DNA of 64,000 bases from Deltaproteobacteria bacterium (GTDB lineage Bacteria; Desulfobacterota; Desulfomonilia; UBA1062). The notes below the pieces were generated by a model. The model worked only from the letters and a program-made list of their open reading frames with translations. It had not been told where the DNA came from and did no database searches. A program made the translations under genes and the position numbers. The DNA is taken from NCBI GenBank assembly GCA_018434685.1, contig JAHDOV010000004.1, forward strand, positions 474,808 through 538,807. Reading direction: 5' to 3'. Of the stretch, positions 49,061 to 56,155 are shown one piece after another (positions within the stretch are counted from its first letter, which is position 1; each line of letters starts with the position of its first letter).

Positions 49061-50353
49061 TCACCGGGTGTCCTCGACCGCGATGGGTGCCCCGGCGATA
49101 TCCTCCAGACGCCGGATGCGTTCCACCAGGGGAGGGTGCGAGTAGTAGAACCAGGCGTATGCGGGGTGGGGGTGGAGGTTGGAAAGATTCTTCCTGGCCA
49201 GGTGCTTCAGCGCGGTGGCAAGGGCGAGCGGATCTGCGGTCAGCAGGCAGGCGTAATCGTCTGCCTGTCGTTCGAAATGGCGTGAGAGCATGCTTGGCAG
49301 GGGGGAGAGGAAAAAGGCGAAGGGTCTGGCAATGATCGTGAGGAGAAAGAGCCCGGCGTAGATGGTGGTTCCCTGGAAGCCGAAGGTGTCGTAGAGGAGG
49401 GGATGGGTTACAAAGGCATATGCCAGATAGAGGATCACGAGAGACAGGCCCATGGACAGGACCAGCTGCTTCCTGATATGCCCCATTTTCCAGTGCCCCA
49501 GTTCGTGGGCCAGCACGGCAGCGATCTCGTCGGTGCTGTGGTCTTCTATGAGGGTGTCGAAGAGCACGATGCGTTTTGCCTTGCCTATCCCGGTGAAATA
49601 GGCATTGGAATGCGTGCTCCTCTTGCCGGCATCCATTTGGTACAGGCCCTTGACATGGATCCCGCTCCGGCTTGCCAGGGCGGTTATGCGATCCTTGAGC
49701 TCACGGTCCTCAATGGGTTCGAACCTGTTGAACAGCGGCGCGATCACGACCGGGTACAGCCAGGTGATCAGGAGCTGAAAACAGATGAAGAAGAGCCACG
49801 CCCACAGCCACCACGTGTTCTGGGCATAAAGGATGAGGCTGAAAAAGACCGCGAGAAAGATTCCCATGACGATGGCGGTGATGATGAGGGATTTGAAAAG
49901 ATCGTTGAACCAGAGCCGCAGCGTCAGCGTGTTGAAGGAGAATCTCTTTTCGATCACGAAATTCCTGTAGAGATCGAAGGGGATCGTGGCAGCGGCCATG
50001 AGCACAGAGCAGGCAAAGAAAAAGAGTATGCCGGAGAAAACAAAGGGCAGACTCAATGCGGTTATCCGATCGTTCAGCCAGGGCAGAAATCCGCTCAGGA
50101 GGATAACGATAATGAGGAGATCCTCTGCAAGGTTCTCGATGGAACCCAGGCGGCTCGTGGCAATGGTGTACTCGCTCATCCGTGCGAGCGAGGACCGGTC
50201 GAGGATGTCCCTGAAACTCTCCGGCACACGATCGCCCACCGATCTCAGGTGCGCGATGTTCAGCCGGTTGAGGAGGAGCCGCACGCCGATATTGAGGGCA
50301 TACGCCACGAGGAACAGTTCAAGAAGCAGGGTAGCATGTATTGTCGTAACCAT
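49061..50353 (-). CDS. M48 family membrane metalloprotease (Ste24-like)
   Basis: A 430-residue integral membrane zinc protease with about seven membrane segments. The catalytic motif HELGHWKMGH lies near residue 290, and the third zinc ligand Glu is probably in RHFERQADDYA near 365. It resembles the eukaryotic-type Ste24/CAAX prenyl protease subgroup rather than HtpX because it is longer and has the extra N-terminal segments. The role is likely quality control of membrane proteins. It lies next to a hairpin and a rubrerythrin-like gene on the same strand. Confidence 0.92.
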   Translation of the reverse strand: MVTTIHATLLLELFLVAYALNIGVRLLLNRLNIAHLRSVGDRVPESFRDILDRSSLARMSEYTIATSRLGSIENLAEDLLIIVILLSGFLPWLNDRITALSLPFVFSGILFFFACSVLMAAATIPFDLYRNFVIEKRFSFNTLTLRLWFNDLFKSLIITAIVMGIFLAVFFSLILYAQNTWWLWAWLFFICFQLLITWLYPVVIAPLFNRFEPIEDRELKDRITALASRSGIHVKGLYQMDAGKRSTHSNAYFTGIGKAKRIVLFDTLIEDHSTDEIAAVLAHELGHWKMGHIRKQLVLSMGLSLVILYLAYAFVTHPLLYDTFGFQGTTIYAGLFLLTIIARPFAFFLSPLPSMLSRHFERQADDYACLLTADPLALATALKHLARKNLSNLHPHPAYAWFYYSHPPLVERIRRLEDIAGAPIAVEDTR

Positions 50354-50474: not shown

Positions 50475-50942
50475 TTACCCCCCGTCGGTCTGGGGGAATG
50501 CGGAATTGGAATAGAGATACTCCACCTTTTCCTTATGCTTGAGCTCTTCACTGGCAATCTTGCGGAACATCTCCCGGAGCTCTCCCTCGGGATGGAGGTC
50601 TGCCAGTGCGGCGTAGAACTTGTAGGAGTTCAGTTCCCGGTGCGCGGCGAGGAGATACACATCCGAGCTTGCCATGCTCTCCTTGACGGGGGGTTGTTCC
50701 AGGTGTTCGGCGACCCTGTAGTCCACGGGGTGGTTCATTCTCAGGGCGTTCGCGCCGAAACCCCCTTCCCGGTAGCTGATGAGGAATTGTTTGTGCTTTT
50801 TCTCTTCCTCGGCTAACAGCATCAGGGCGTCTTTTGCTGTCTTGTCCCTGAGTCGGGTATGGAGATCCATGTAAAACTCATACGCCTCTTCTTCCCGCTG
50901 GATCGCAATATCGATATAGTCTCCGAGTCGTTTTTCTTCCAT
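50475..50942 (-). CDS. Ferritin-like/rubrerythrin-family di-iron protein
   Basis: A 155-residue four-helix protein with the di-iron pattern AIQREEEAYEFY, LAEEEKKHKQFL, LAAHRELNSYKFY and ASEELKHKEKVEYLY. There is no rubredoxin domain. AGGAGG lies 6 bases before the ATG at 50942; a frame to 50999 is an artefact. Together with the genes at 630 and 4026 this is the third rubrerythrin-class protein in the window, consistent with heavy reliance on peroxide reduction. Its direct neighbours do not suggest a specific donor. Confidence 0.85.
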   Translation of the reverse strand: MEEKRLGDYIDIAIQREEEAYEFYMDLHTRLRDKTAKDALMLLAEEEKKHKQFLISYREGGFGANALRMNHPVDYRVAEHLEQPPVKESMASSDVYLLAAHRELNSYKFYAALADLHPEGELREMFRKIASEELKHKEKVEYLYSNSAFPQTDGG

Positions 50943-51064
50943 GATCGTCCTCCTTTCTGACCTTACAGGAATAAATAGCGCCGAGGCGGGAAAAATCAAT
51001 TTATCCCTGATGGATGCGTTCGAGGATCAAACCGGTACGGCGCAGGGTGCGTGAAGGCCGCGGG

Positions 51065-52693
51065 CTACATCATGGTGAACAGCCACAACAGGCCCATGAA
51101 CGGCAGGATCGTCCAGAGCCCATGCACATAGATGATGAAAATGCGGTTGTCGAAGATGACCTGTTCGTTATAGAAATCGATCCCCTTTGCCAGGAAGAAC
51201 AGGGGCGGAAGGAGTCCATAGGCAAGCGCCGGTGCTATCTTGAGGGGATAGCTCAGAAACAGGACGAGGGCGAGCCCCATGATGGTGTATTCGAGGATGA
51301 GGATGGCCTTGTCTTCATTCATGTATCTGGCCAGGCTCATCCTCCCGATGATTGCATCCCGCTCCATATTCTTGAGCCCGATGAGGATTTCCCCTCCCAG
51401 GTACTGAGTGGATACATAGGCAATGAGCATGACGATATTCGGGTCGATTGCTGTTCCCACGAGGCTCAGCGGGGTAATGACGGATATGAGGATGAAGATT
51501 ACCGCACCGTACATGCTCCGGAGATAGTCTCTCACCCCGCCCACATCGATGAGCGGCCGCAGGAGCGAGACCCCGATCACGAGGAGACCGCTGATCAGGC
51601 CGCAGGAGATGAGACCGAGAGAAACGGCAATGCCGGTGGAGACGGCCCATACGGGCCACTGGCTCGTTTTGCGGGCCGGGCCGGTCGAGGCGAAGGCGAG
51701 GAAGAACACGATGAGCAGAACCGTCCAGTTGTAGGTCTGTCCGCAGAACACGAGCGAGGCCATCGCCACCCCCAGGCTTCCCAGGGAAGAGAGCAGCGGC
51801 GTTTCAGCCAGGACATTGAGCAGGACGTGTTCTATCCCGGAGTTGGCGTGCAGGGCCTTGAGGGCATTGATGCACTCTTCTATGACCCAGTGCGGGGTGG
51901 ATGCACCGGCTATCACAGCCACCTTTGCCGAGTCGTTTATCGTGACACCCTTGAGCTGCTCCGGTGATTCGACCCTGATTACCTCACGGTGTTCCTTAGA
52001 GGCAATCTCCGCAAGGCGTTTGGTGTTTGCGGAATTTTCCCCTCCGATAACGATGAAGGTGTCGTGATCCTTTGAGAGGTCCTTGACCTCGTTCTGCCGG
52101 TCCACCGTGGAGCGGCAGATCGTATCGGAGATATCGAGGATGTCCGCTTTCTCCCTGAGCACCTGGATAATGTCCTTGTAGATGGAGACATCAAAGGTTG
52201 TCTGGGCCACCACGGCGAGCCGTTCTACCTTCCCGAGCCGCCGGGCATCCTCGACATTTTCGACCAGTACCCCCTTGTCTCCTGCGACACCGAGGTGAAC
52301 GTCCATTTCCGGATGGTTCTTGTCTCCCACGATGACGATGAGGTCGGCACTCTTGGCCGCTTTCCTGATGATGGACTGGACCTTGAGCACCATGGGACAG
52401 GCGGCATCTATGACCGTAACCCCCCGTTGTTCGAGGGCCTGTTTCTTGTCCGGGGAGATGCCGTGGGCACGCACGATGGCAATGTCTCCCGGTTTGAGGC
52501 GCTTGTCGTTCACATCGTTAATGATGCCGATGCCGCGGCGCTTGAGGGTTTCAATGACCTGGGGATTATGGATGATCTGGCCCAGGGTGTAGATATGTTT
52601 GTTCGGATTTTCCTGCCGAACCCGGAAAGTGATGTCGATGGCCCTCCTCACCCCGAAGCAAAAACCGGCAAACCGCGCAATGGTTATCTTCAT
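51065..52693 (-). CDS. ispH: IspH (HMBPP reductase) fused to a polytopic membrane domain
   Basis: A 542-residue protein. Residues 1-285 are a complete HMBPP reductase, the last enzyme of the MEP isoprenoid pathway, with 4Fe-4S ligands C12, C99 and C193, plus RAHG and GASTPHWVIEE. Residues 290-542 form about eight or nine membrane segments not found in normal IspH (about 310 residues). This part resembles a UbiA prenyltransferase fold: EILIGLKNMERDAIIGR (435-451) looks like the second Asp motif, but the first NDxxD motif is absent. The start overlaps the tlyA stop by 4 bases. The fusion may channel product at the membrane or anchor the reductase. Confidence 0.88.
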   Translation of the reverse strand: MKITIARFAGFCFGVRRAIDITFRVRQENPNKHIYTLGQIIHNPQVIETLKRRGIGIINDVNDKRLKPGDIAIVRAHGISPDKKQALEQRGVTVIDAACPMVLKVQSIIRKAAKSADLIVIVGDKNHPEMDVHLGVAGDKGVLVENVEDARRLGKVERLAVVAQTTFDVSIYKDIIQVLREKADILDISDTICRSTVDRQNEVKDLSKDHDTFIVIGGENSANTKRLAEIASKEHREVIRVESPEQLKGVTINDSAKVAVIAGASTPHWVIEECINALKALHANSGIEHVLLNVLAETPLLSSLGSLGVAMASLVFCGQTYNWTVLLIVFFLAFASTGPARKTSQWPVWAVSTGIAVSLGLISCGLISGLLVIGVSLLRPLIDVGGVRDYLRSMYGAVIFILISVITPLSLVGTAIDPNIVMLIAYVSTQYLGGEILIGLKNMERDAIIGRMSLARYMNEDKAILILEYTIMGLALVLFLSYPLKIAPALAYGLLPPLFFLAKGIDFYNEQVIFDNRIFIIYVHGLWTILPFMGLLWLFTMM

Positions 52694-53427
52694 CGCTCTC
52701 CTTTGAAAAGGGCATGGATCAGGTATTCCTGATTGCCCTTGACCCCCTTGACCGGTGACGGAATCGTGCCGCTCACCGTCAGATCGAGGGAGATAAAAAA
52801 TGCCTCTAAGTCTTCGATGACCTTTTTTGCAACGTTCTCGTCTCTGAGTATACCACCTTTGCCCACCGAATGTCTCCCTGCTTCAAACTGGGGTTTGATG
52901 AGTGCGATGATCTGGGCAGCCGGTCCAAGTACCTTGAGGACCGGAGGGACAACGAGTTTGAGCGATATGAACGAGACATCGAAGGTGGCGACATCGCAGG
53001 GTTCCGGGATCAGCGCCGGGTCAAGATTCCTCGCGTTGACCCCCTCCAGGCTGATCACCCGCCCGTCATTGGCGAGGCGCCAGTGGAGCTGGGAATGTCC
53101 GACATCGACGGCATATACCCTCCTGGCACCGCGCTGGAGCATGAGATCCGTGAATCCGCCCGTGGAGGCGCCGATATCGATGGCCACCTTGCCGGTGAGG
53201 TCAACACCAAAGGCATCGAGGGCCGCCTCGAGTTTGCCGCCTGCCCTGCTCACGTAGGCGGGGGCTTCCTTTATGGATATCAGTGCGCCCTCATCAGTGG
53301 GCGAGCCTGCCTTGGTTACGGGTTTTCCGTCCACCAGGACACTGCCGGACATGATCAGGCCGAGCGCCTTGGACCTCGTCTCGGCATACCCCTTTTCCAC
53401 GAGCAATGTGTCCAGACGCATCTTCAT
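52690..53427 (-). CDS. tlyA: TlyA family rRNA 2'-O-methyltransferase
   Basis: A 245-residue protein with an N-terminal S4 RNA-binding domain (RLDTLLVEKGYAETRSKA) and a C-terminal FtsJ-like methyltransferase with the SAM loop IDIGASTGGFTD. It should methylate ribosomal RNA cytidines. It overlaps dxs upstream (ATGA) and ispH downstream (ATGA). The placement next to dxs is common in bacteria and has no clear metabolic reason. Confidence 0.94.
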   Translation of the reverse strand: MKMRLDTLLVEKGYAETRSKALGLIMSGSVLVDGKPVTKAGSPTDEGALISIKEAPAYVSRAGGKLEAALDAFGVDLTGKVAIDIGASTGGFTDLMLQRGARRVYAVDVGHSQLHWRLANDGRVISLEGVNARNLDPALIPEPCDVATFDVSFISLKLVVPPVLKVLGPAAQIIALIKPQFEAGRHSVGKGGILRDENVAKKVIEDLEAFFISLDLTVSGTIPSPVKGVKGNQEYLIHALFKGER

Positions 53428-55271
53428 AGGAGCTTGAGCACTGCGTTGTGTATCCCCTGCCTGTCAAGGGAGAGGCGCTTCCTGAGGTCATCGAGCGACC
53501 CCTGTTCCACAAAGGTATCGGGTATGCCCAGGAGCTGAAATCTCAGCGGGATATCCAGCTCGCCCAGGGTTTCCACCACGGCAGAACCGACGCCGCCCTG
53601 TATGCAGCCGTCTTCCACCACGATGAACCGGCCGTTGCAGGACCGCACCACCTCGATGATGGTCTTCGTATCGAGGGGTTTCGCAAAGATCAGATCGACC
53701 ACGGCGATGTCGTCCAGGTCGCCGACGGCATCGAGCACCGTGTAGCAAAGCGGTCCGACGCAGAAGACAGCAGCCTTTGAGCCCTCCCTGAGGATCTCTG
53801 CCTTGCCGGTCTTCAGGCGGGAGCTCTTCACGGGGGACTCGACGATCTTTTCCCTCGGGTAGCGTATGGCCACGGGCCCCTGGATCTTGAGTGCGTATTC
53901 GAGCATCTTGGTAAGCATGAGCTGGTCCCTGGGGACCATGACCGTAACATTCGGGATGCTCCTGAAATACGAGAGGTCGAAAACCCCGTGATGGGTCGGT
54001 CCGTCGGGACCCACCAGGCCTGCCCGGTCTATGGCAAAGATGACCGGGGCGTTCTGCAGGGCAACATCGTGGATGATCTCGTCATAGCTTCTCTGGAGAA
54101 AGGTCGAGTAGATGGCGACCACGGGTTTGAGTCCGAACAGTGCCATCCCGGCAGCCATGGTAACGGCATGACCCTCGGCAATTCCTACATCGTGGAATCG
54201 TTCCGGAAAACGGTGGGCAAACGCCTTGAGGCCTGTGCCAGAGGTCATGGCAGCGGTTATGGCAATGATCCGGGGGTCTTTCTTCGCCATGCTGACGAGC
54301 TGCTTGCCGAAGACATCGGAATAGGTCAGGGCGGGTGCCTTCGATGGTATGTCGCCGTTTTCGAGGTCAAACTTGCCCACACCGTGGAAATGCTCGGGGT
54401 CTTTCATGGCAGGTGTGTACCCCCGGCCCTTCTGGGTGATGAGGTGAAGGAGGATGGGCTCGTGCATCTCGGAGATATTCCTGAAGCTCTCGATGAGGTG
54501 GTCGAGGTTGTGCCCGTCGATCGGGCCCACATAGCGGAATCCCATCTCCTCGAAGAGCAGTCCCTCGGTGACGACCCCTTTGACATTGGACTCCACCTGT
54601 TTCGCGACCTTGTAGATCGTATCCCCGAACCCCGGGATGCCCTTGAGGATGCCCTTGATGCCCTCCCGGACATCGCGAACCCGTTTCGAGGTCATGATCC
54701 TGCTGAGGTAATCTGCAATGGCGCCCACCCGGCTGGATATGAACATCTTGTTGTCATTGAGCACGACGATGAGATTCTGTTTCTTCGTGCCCACGAAATT
54801 GAGCCCCTCGAAGGTGAGGCCGTTGGAGAGCGAGCCGTCGCCGATCACGGCGATCACCCGGTTGGAGCACCCTGCCAGGGCCATGGTCTCGCAGATGCCG
54901 CTCGCCGCAGGGATGGCGTTTCCGGAATGCCCGGAAATGAAGACATCATAGGGGCTCTCCCCAGGATTGATGAAGGCGCTGAGACCGCCGCGCTGCCGGA
55001 GGGTTTCAAACCGGTCTTTTCTGCCGGTGATGATCTTGTGGGCGTACCCCTGATGTCCGACATCCCAGAGGATCTTGTCGTGGGGGGTGTTGAATACATA
55101 GTGCATCGCCAGGGTGAACTCCACGGTGCCGAGGCTGGAGGCGAGGTGCCCCCCGGTCTGGCTCACGTGTGCGACGATGAATTCCCTGATCTCCTGGGCA
55201 AGGATCTCCAGTTCCGCAACAGAGAGCTTCTTCAAATCCCTTGGTGTCGAGATATTCGGCAGTATGCTCAT
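53424..55271 (-). CDS. dxs: 1-deoxy-D-xylulose-5-phosphate synthase
   Basis: A 615-residue thiamine diphosphate enzyme that condenses pyruvate and glyceraldehyde-3-phosphate as the first step of the MEP pathway. It has GGHLASSLGTVEFT near the N-terminus, the TPP motif GDGSLSNGLTFEGLN, DGHNLDHL, and the transketolase-like DRAGLVGPDGPTHHG region. The frame extends far upstream into ispA, but the ATG at 55271 gives the normal length; a GTG at 55280 is a possible alternative. It closely follows ispA and couples to tlyA. Confidence 0.96.
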   Translation of the reverse strand: MSILPNISTPRDLKKLSVAELEILAQEIREFIVAHVSQTGGHLASSLGTVEFTLAMHYVFNTPHDKILWDVGHQGYAHKIITGRKDRFETLRQRGGLSAFINPGESPYDVFISGHSGNAIPAASGICETMALAGCSNRVIAVIGDGSLSNGLTFEGLNFVGTKKQNLIVVLNDNKMFISSRVGAIADYLSRIMTSKRVRDVREGIKGILKGIPGFGDTIYKVAKQVESNVKGVVTEGLLFEEMGFRYVGPIDGHNLDHLIESFRNISEMHEPILLHLITQKGRGYTPAMKDPEHFHGVGKFDLENGDIPSKAPALTYSDVFGKQLVSMAKKDPRIIAITAAMTSGTGLKAFAHRFPERFHDVGIAEGHAVTMAAGMALFGLKPVVAIYSTFLQRSYDEIIHDVALQNAPVIFAIDRAGLVGPDGPTHHGVFDLSYFRSIPNVTVMVPRDQLMLTKMLEYALKIQGPVAIRYPREKIVESPVKSSRLKTGKAEILREGSKAAVFCVGPLCYTVLDAVGDLDDIAVVDLIFAKPLDTKTIIEVVRSCNGRFIVVEDGCIQGGVGSAVVETLGELDIPLRFQLLGIPDTFVEQGSLDDLRKRLSLDRQGIHNAVLKLL

Positions 55272-55276
55272 GGTTT

Positions 55277-56155
55277 TCACATCACCCGCTGAACCATAGA
55301 CCGGGCAAGTTCCTCCAATACCGTCGAGTGCTTGTCGCCTATTTGCCCGAGGCATTCGATGGCGCTGCCGGTCATGTGACGCGCCCATGCCCGAGCCTCG
55401 TCGATGCCGAGGGCCTTTACGATGGTTGCCTTGTCCTGGAGCAGATCCTTCCCCGAGGTCTTGCCGAGGACCGTGTCCGTGGAGGTTACATCCAGTATGT
55501 CGTCGATGGCCTGGAACGCGAGCCCCAGGTAGGTGCCGTACTGCACGAGGGGCCGAATCTTCCCGGGGTCGCCGGTCGCTATCCGTGAACCCGTATACAG
55601 GCAGAGCTCGAAGAGGCGGGCTGTCTTCTTCGTGTAGATGTCCTGAATCTGCTCGAGAGAAAGACTCTTCCCCTCGGAAACGACATCCTGGTACTCTCCC
55701 TGAACCAGGCCGCTGGTGCCGCAGACGTCGGCAACGGCCTTGAAGAGGTCTACCTTGACATCGATGCTGTAGTCGGCAGAGCCGATCACGGACAGTGCCT
55801 GGAATATGAGGGCGTCGCCGGCAAGGATTGCGGTGGCTTCCCCGAATCTCGTGTGGCACGTGGGCTGGCCTCTTCTGAGCGCGTCGTTGTCCAGTGCGGG
55901 GAGATCGTCGTGGATGAGGCTGAACGTGTGGATCATCTCGATGGCGAGACCTGCAGGAAGGGTTTCACGGGGGTCTCCACCCAGGGTTTCATGGGCGAGC
56001 ATGGTCAGGATGGGGCGTATGCGCTTGCCCCCGGCTGTCAGCGAATAGGCAAAGGCGTCGATTATTCCCGAGTCGATACCCAGGCTGTCGAGGTAGGAAT
56101 GGAGGAAATCGTCAAATACCTTCTTTCTCTCTGCAATTACTGCGCTTATGTCCAA
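55277..56155 (-). CDS. ispA: Geranyl/farnesyl diphosphate synthase
   Basis: A short-chain trans-prenyltransferase of 292 residues that builds C10-C15 diphosphates from IPP and DMAPP. It has the first Asp-rich motif DDLPALDND, GGKRIRP for substrate binding, and the second motif FQAIDDILD. With dxs and ispH in the same operon it links the first, last and post-MEP steps, supplying undecaprenyl and quinone chains. xseB, often found upstream of ispA, is not present here. Confidence 0.95.
   Translation of the reverse strand: MDISAVIAERKKVFDDFLHSYLDSLGIDSGIIDAFAYSLTAGGKRIRPILTMLAHETLGGDPRETLPAGLAIEMIHTFSLIHDDLPALDNDALRRGQPTCHTRFGEATAILAGDALIFQALSVIGSADYSIDVKVDLFKAVADVCGTSGLVQGEYQDVVSEGKSLSLEQIQDIYTKKTARLFELCLYTGSRIATGDPGKIRPLVQYGTYLGLAFQAIDDILDVTSTDTVLGKTSGKDLLQDKATIVKALGIDEARAWARHMTGSAIECLGQIGDKHSTVLEELARSMVQRVM

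Follow-up and report, generated by a model that had tools for sequence, protein, structure and literature searches.

A family-wide IspH fusion whose predicted UbiA-type membrane domain has lost most of its prenyltransferase ligands

In the window, a 64,000-nucleotide stretch of a deltaproteobacterial genome, ispH continues in frame into a membrane domain that has lost most of the catalytic residues of UbiA prenyltransferases. We propose, with a probability of roughly 60%, that an active IspH is anchored and oriented at the cytoplasmic face of the inner membrane by this domain, a pseudo-prenyltransferase without the Mg2+/diphosphate site. No earlier description seems to exist of a catalytically stripped IspH-UbiA fusion that is shared by an entire bacterial family; a literature search for UbiA pseudoenzymes found no paper with the terms used.

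The fusion gene was a single open reading frame on the minus strand, running from ATG to stop over 542 codons with no internal stop (Table 1). IspH is an essential isoprenoid-making enzyme, and the fusion was the sole ispH match in a PF02401 profile search of the window genome. Residues 3–279 matched PF02401 (LYTB, IspH) with an E-value of 2.6e-83. The cluster cysteines C12, C99 and C193 were all there and did not vary among the 63 fused proteins aligned (alignment A6); the same held for the active-site residues H42, H77, H127, E129, T165/T166, S221, N223 and S265. Judged by its profile match, its three cluster cysteines and its active-site residues, the IspH half is a catalytically complete HMBPP reductase, in agreement with the first-pass annotation, which had described a complete N-terminal 4Fe-4S enzyme.

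Table 1 Features of the fusion locus, in window positions
Feature	Position	Strand	Remarks
Whole fusion gene, 542 aa	51065..52693	(-)	only ispH match in genome
IspH (4Fe-4S HMBPP reductase) domain, residues 1-280	51854..52693	(-)	PF02401 match; catalytic residues complete
Predicted degenerate UbiA-fold membrane domain, residues 281-542 (262 residues)	51068..51853	(-)	AF2, Foldseek/VIA, hhalign
Position at which the UbiA motif-1 block is missing, residues 335-346, ASTGPARKTSQW	51656..51691	(-)	other fusions: MHxLNRxxDxxAxxxNDPxRAxFY
UbiA motif-2 remnant, residues 435-456	51326..51391	(-)	E435...N442 M E444 R D446 A I I G450...R456
tlyA-like S4/FtsJ methyltransferase	52690..53427	(-)	4-base overlap with ispH start
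dxs ORF	53424..55859	(-)	true start inside ORF, near MSILPNIS
ispA-type polyprenyl synthetase	55277..56155	(-)	PF00348 E 1.3e-54
M48 CAAX-type membrane protease	49061-50353		PF16491 + PF01435; downstream of fusion
Rubrerythrin-like gene	50475-50999		directly downstream of fusion

The annotated operon partners ispA, dxs and tlyA were confirmed upstream of the fusion, and the order ispA-dxs-tlyA-fusion was common to the window's family (f1) and several distant families (L077, L080, L081, L088 and L098). On the downstream side, the membrane protease gene was seen at all nine f1 loci examined and the rubrerythrin-like gene at four of the nine. In the window genome, one gene (G000:C56, E 1.2e-34) was clearly a UbiA-family member free of any fusion. 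Since this gene is present, quinone prenyl transfer is presumably performed by its product.

A sequencing or assembly error, such as a lost stop or a frameshift, could in principle have joined ispH to an unrelated membrane gene, and a check for this had been suggested with the original annotation. The fusion was uninterrupted and in the same frame in 12 public contigs with 65–82% identity, two of them named Syntrophaceae and the rest labelled Deltaproteobacteria. Within f1, a C-domain match was found in 21 of 24 genomes, representing 10 of 10 genera; in the other three genomes the ispH match was absent or truncated. In one f1 genome (G013), a frame break lay within the IspH half. Because almost every f1 genome carries the fusion intact, a lost stop is excluded. 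Related fusions, moreover, occur throughout the phylum, and no point in favour of an artefact was found. Hence we rejected this explanation as extremely improbable and regard the fusion as genuine. In informative f1 pairs, dN/dS was 0.07–0.18 for the C half and 0.05–0.12 for the IspH half; both values are low, which indicates that both halves are under purifying selection and that the C-domain is, on these rates, not decaying junk.

The C-terminal part had been called polytopic, and indeed residues 281–542 formed about nine membrane helices in an AlphaFold2 model (pLDDT 90.7, pTM 0.88). The solved structures that matched this model best were UbiA-family enzymes: 7bpu (DGGGP synthase) ranked first by E-value, and 4od4 (UbiA) gave a TM-score of 0.66 and a Z-score of 15.2 over 235 residues in the Foldseek and VIA comparisons. 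The proposed UbiA similarity thus withstood the fold search, and the membrane domain is predicted to adopt a UbiA-type prenyltransferase fold. In a profile-profile comparison (hhalign), f1 matched the UbiA halves of other fusions with an E-value of 5.5e-12 over 250 columns, with a gap at motif 1, compared with 0.17 for the reversed control, and the other fusions matched free-standing UbiAs with an E-value of 1.8e-12. Compared directly with free-standing UbiAs, f1 gave no significant match (E 0.01 vs 0.017 for the reversed control); the connection in sequence therefore runs through the other fusions as intermediates, together with the structure. Pfam and NCBIfam scans of the C-terminal domain alone gave no assignment: the window protein had no UbiA match in Pfam and did not reach the PF01040 gathering cut-off, the best f1 member also fell below this cut-off (E 2.3e-5), and an f1-only profile found no match in the PDB. 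We also considered an unrelated membrane family and rejected it; Pfam offered only a sub-threshold match to DUF2214, and both the fold search and the profile comparisons point to UbiA. In the full-length model (pLDDT 92.1, pTM 0.84), the linker was almost absent and helices 268–280 and 283–297 adjoined at the domain junction. The confidence of this model and the adjoining helices suggest that IspH and the membrane domain are held in a fixed arrangement.

IspH-UbiA fusions are a known class. Rao et al. 2015 (PMC4746011) described them in sulfate reducers and counted 47 members, contradicting the initial impression that this type of fusion was unreported. For the UbiA half, those authors reported two DXXXD motifs, and they proposed that IspH feeds UbiA in cis in canonical fusions; an active full-length protein was not obtained, and the role of the fusions was left open. 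A text search of the main text of that paper found no Syntroph- organisms. When 395 genomes of the phylum were searched with PF02401, many ispH ORFs of 560–690 codons were listed, and all long ispH ORFs that were fetched and examined carried at least 260 further residues after IspH. Pfam UbiA matched 60 of the 66 C-domains in the alignment at E ≤0.1, and the fusions outside f1 scored above the Pfam UbiA cut-off. In a tree of the IspH domain, a branch with SH-aLRT 90 set the fused proteins apart from the rest, as expected if the fusion happened once, and f1 was a single clade with a support of 100. Thus, the IspH-UbiA fusion probably arose once. The fused UbiA subfamily was matched strongly 92 times in 247 genomes, nearly always within fusion-length ORFs; the few shorter ORFs were partial matches, several of them at contig starts. 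Hence, this subfamily effectively occurs only with IspH in this phylum.

Some individual loci of the class differed. In one genome (G155), a fused ispH was accompanied by a separate ispH without the fusion (L095 and L096). At L174 (G045:C37:3300-6100), an intact ispH was followed by an in-frame UbiA half with two stops, TGA and TAA, meaning either that the domain was lost recently or that the draft sequence is in error. Apparent extra N-terminal domains in L149, L177 and L178 were set aside as probably due to over-long ORFs, the added part reading on inspection as an upstream ORF.

In AfUbiA, Mg2+ is bound by N68 and D72 of motif 1 and by D198 and D202 of motif 2, and Y139 adjoins the bond to be cleaved; N68A and D72A abolish GPP binding, and EcMenA needs the equivalents of all five residues (PMC4106721). 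When the fusion columns were related to AfUbiA numbering by motif alignment rather than structure superposition, the equivalents of N68, D72 and Y139 fell in gaps in 19/19 f1 sequences, the D198 equivalent was N in 17, S in one and D in one, and the D202 equivalent (D446 in the window protein) was kept in all 19. The first motif, already noted as absent from the window protein, is accordingly deleted as a block with its two Mg ligands in every f1 sequence aligned. The stretch likened to the second Asp motif, LKNMERDAIIGRMSLAR, does line up column for column with motif 2 of genuine UbiAs, but just D446 and G450 are retained. Measured against the UbiA superfamily, the domain has the membrane fold in its predicted structure, whereas motif 1 (NDxxDxxxD) is deleted and one of the two motif 2 (DxxxD) ligands is left. 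With the Mg/diphosphate ligands lost, prenyl transfer by the f1 domain seems unlikely, and anchoring or positioning is favoured over a coupled transferase.

Outside f1, the same site was only partly preserved. The N68, Y139 and D202 equivalents were nearly invariant in the other fusions. The D72 equivalent was D in 19 of 32 other fusions and E in 15/15 sequences of the sister family f2; the D198 equivalent was D in 18 of the 32 and in 15/15 of f2. All five ligand and Tyr positions were retained in only 8 of 66 fusions. In contrast, three Asp columns and one Tyr column, read as motif positions and not individually mapped to AfUbiA, were invariant in 20/20 free-standing UbiAs of the same class. 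Relaxation of the metal ligands is therefore a feature of the fused domain. In a second family, f30 (L139–L149), nine of the 11 members were without motif 1 and without the first Asp of motif 2; the remaining two (L148 and L149) looked intermediate, and the fusion was retained. In f65, the sister of f30, motif 1 was kept, as was motif 2 with Glu for the first Asp. By these sequence comparisons and its position in the tree, f30 decayed independently of f1. Metal ligands thus vary between fusions and disappeared on at least two occasions, yet the membrane fold stayed joined to IspH. This suggests tentatively that, throughout the phylum, the IspH-tethered UbiA is not a Mg2+-dependent prenyltransferase but a non-catalytic derivative of the UbiA fold that serves the MEP pathway as a scaffold or regulator and occurs only in cis with IspH; we consider this broader reading possible, with the odds against it.

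In the model that we favour, the C-domain, which is related to the UbiA halves of the other fusions of the phylum and has lost the Mg2+/diphosphate site, would anchor the cell's only IspH to the inner membrane and orient it on the cytoplasmic face. IPP/DMAPP would then be made, and possibly channelled, close to polyprenyl synthases, to the genuine UbiA/MenA enzymes or to electron donors of the membrane. One observation argues against plain anchoring: D446 is conserved, as are charged residues peculiar to f1 (R379, E435, K441, E444, E468 and K503), and this is more than such a function would need. These residues make lipid sensing or new chemistry possible.

Under the former, the C-domain would not be a passive anchor but would bind a polyprenyl phosphate or another anionic lipid and regulate IspH allosterically, as a sensor of product or membrane lipid. 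The conserved charged residues within a UbiA fold, among which E460 and K485 also count here, suit this idea, as do the short junction and the confident full-length model; on the other hand, the two motif-1 ligands needed for diphosphate binding in AfUbiA (PMC4106721) are lost in f1, and we judge it rather unlikely. Under the latter, the domain would still be an enzyme, carrying out prenyl or other transfer at a rebuilt site (NMERD...R, D446) that is fed by IspH in cis. E444 and D446 are invariant in f1, the donor would be supplied by IspH, and much of the site is retained in other fusions, but motif 1 and the catalytic Tyr are gone in f1, the first motif-2 Asp is gone in 18/19 sequences, and the lost residues are required in characterised UbiAs (PMC4106721). 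Such activity is distinctly unlikely in our view. Membrane anchoring of IspH thus remains our preferred explanation.

A family variant without ligands separates two explanations that had been tied, namely prenyl transfer in cis and membrane placement of IspH, and the role of IspH-UbiA becomes testable without knowledge of the acceptor. If anchoring is correct, a large group of anaerobes would carry out the final step of the MEP pathway at the membrane.

Compared with known systems, the window protein resembles the IspH-RPS1 fusions (Rao et al. 2015, PMC4746011) in its double-length IspH, whereas those carry soluble S1 repeats and this one a membrane domain. With the solved UbiAs (ApUbiA 4od4, AfUbiA 4tq3 and DGGGP synthase 6m31), the overall predicted fold is shared, but f1 is without the N68, D72 and Y139 equivalents and D198 is mostly N. 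The closest relatives are the IspH-UbiA fusions (PMC4746011; annotated PT_UbiA_5): the IspH domain is N-terminal and a homologous UbiA-type membrane domain C-terminal in both, the membrane halves are related by profile-profile homology, and both lie on the fused side of the IspH tree. The window protein differs in that it does not carry the two DXXXD motifs, as motif 1 is deleted and one motif-2 Asp is left, and in a membrane domain about 40 residues shorter, which misses Pfam UbiA. While the class itself was known (PMC4746011), what is apparently new is the f1-wide loss of most of the catalytic residues in a domain that stays under purifying selection.
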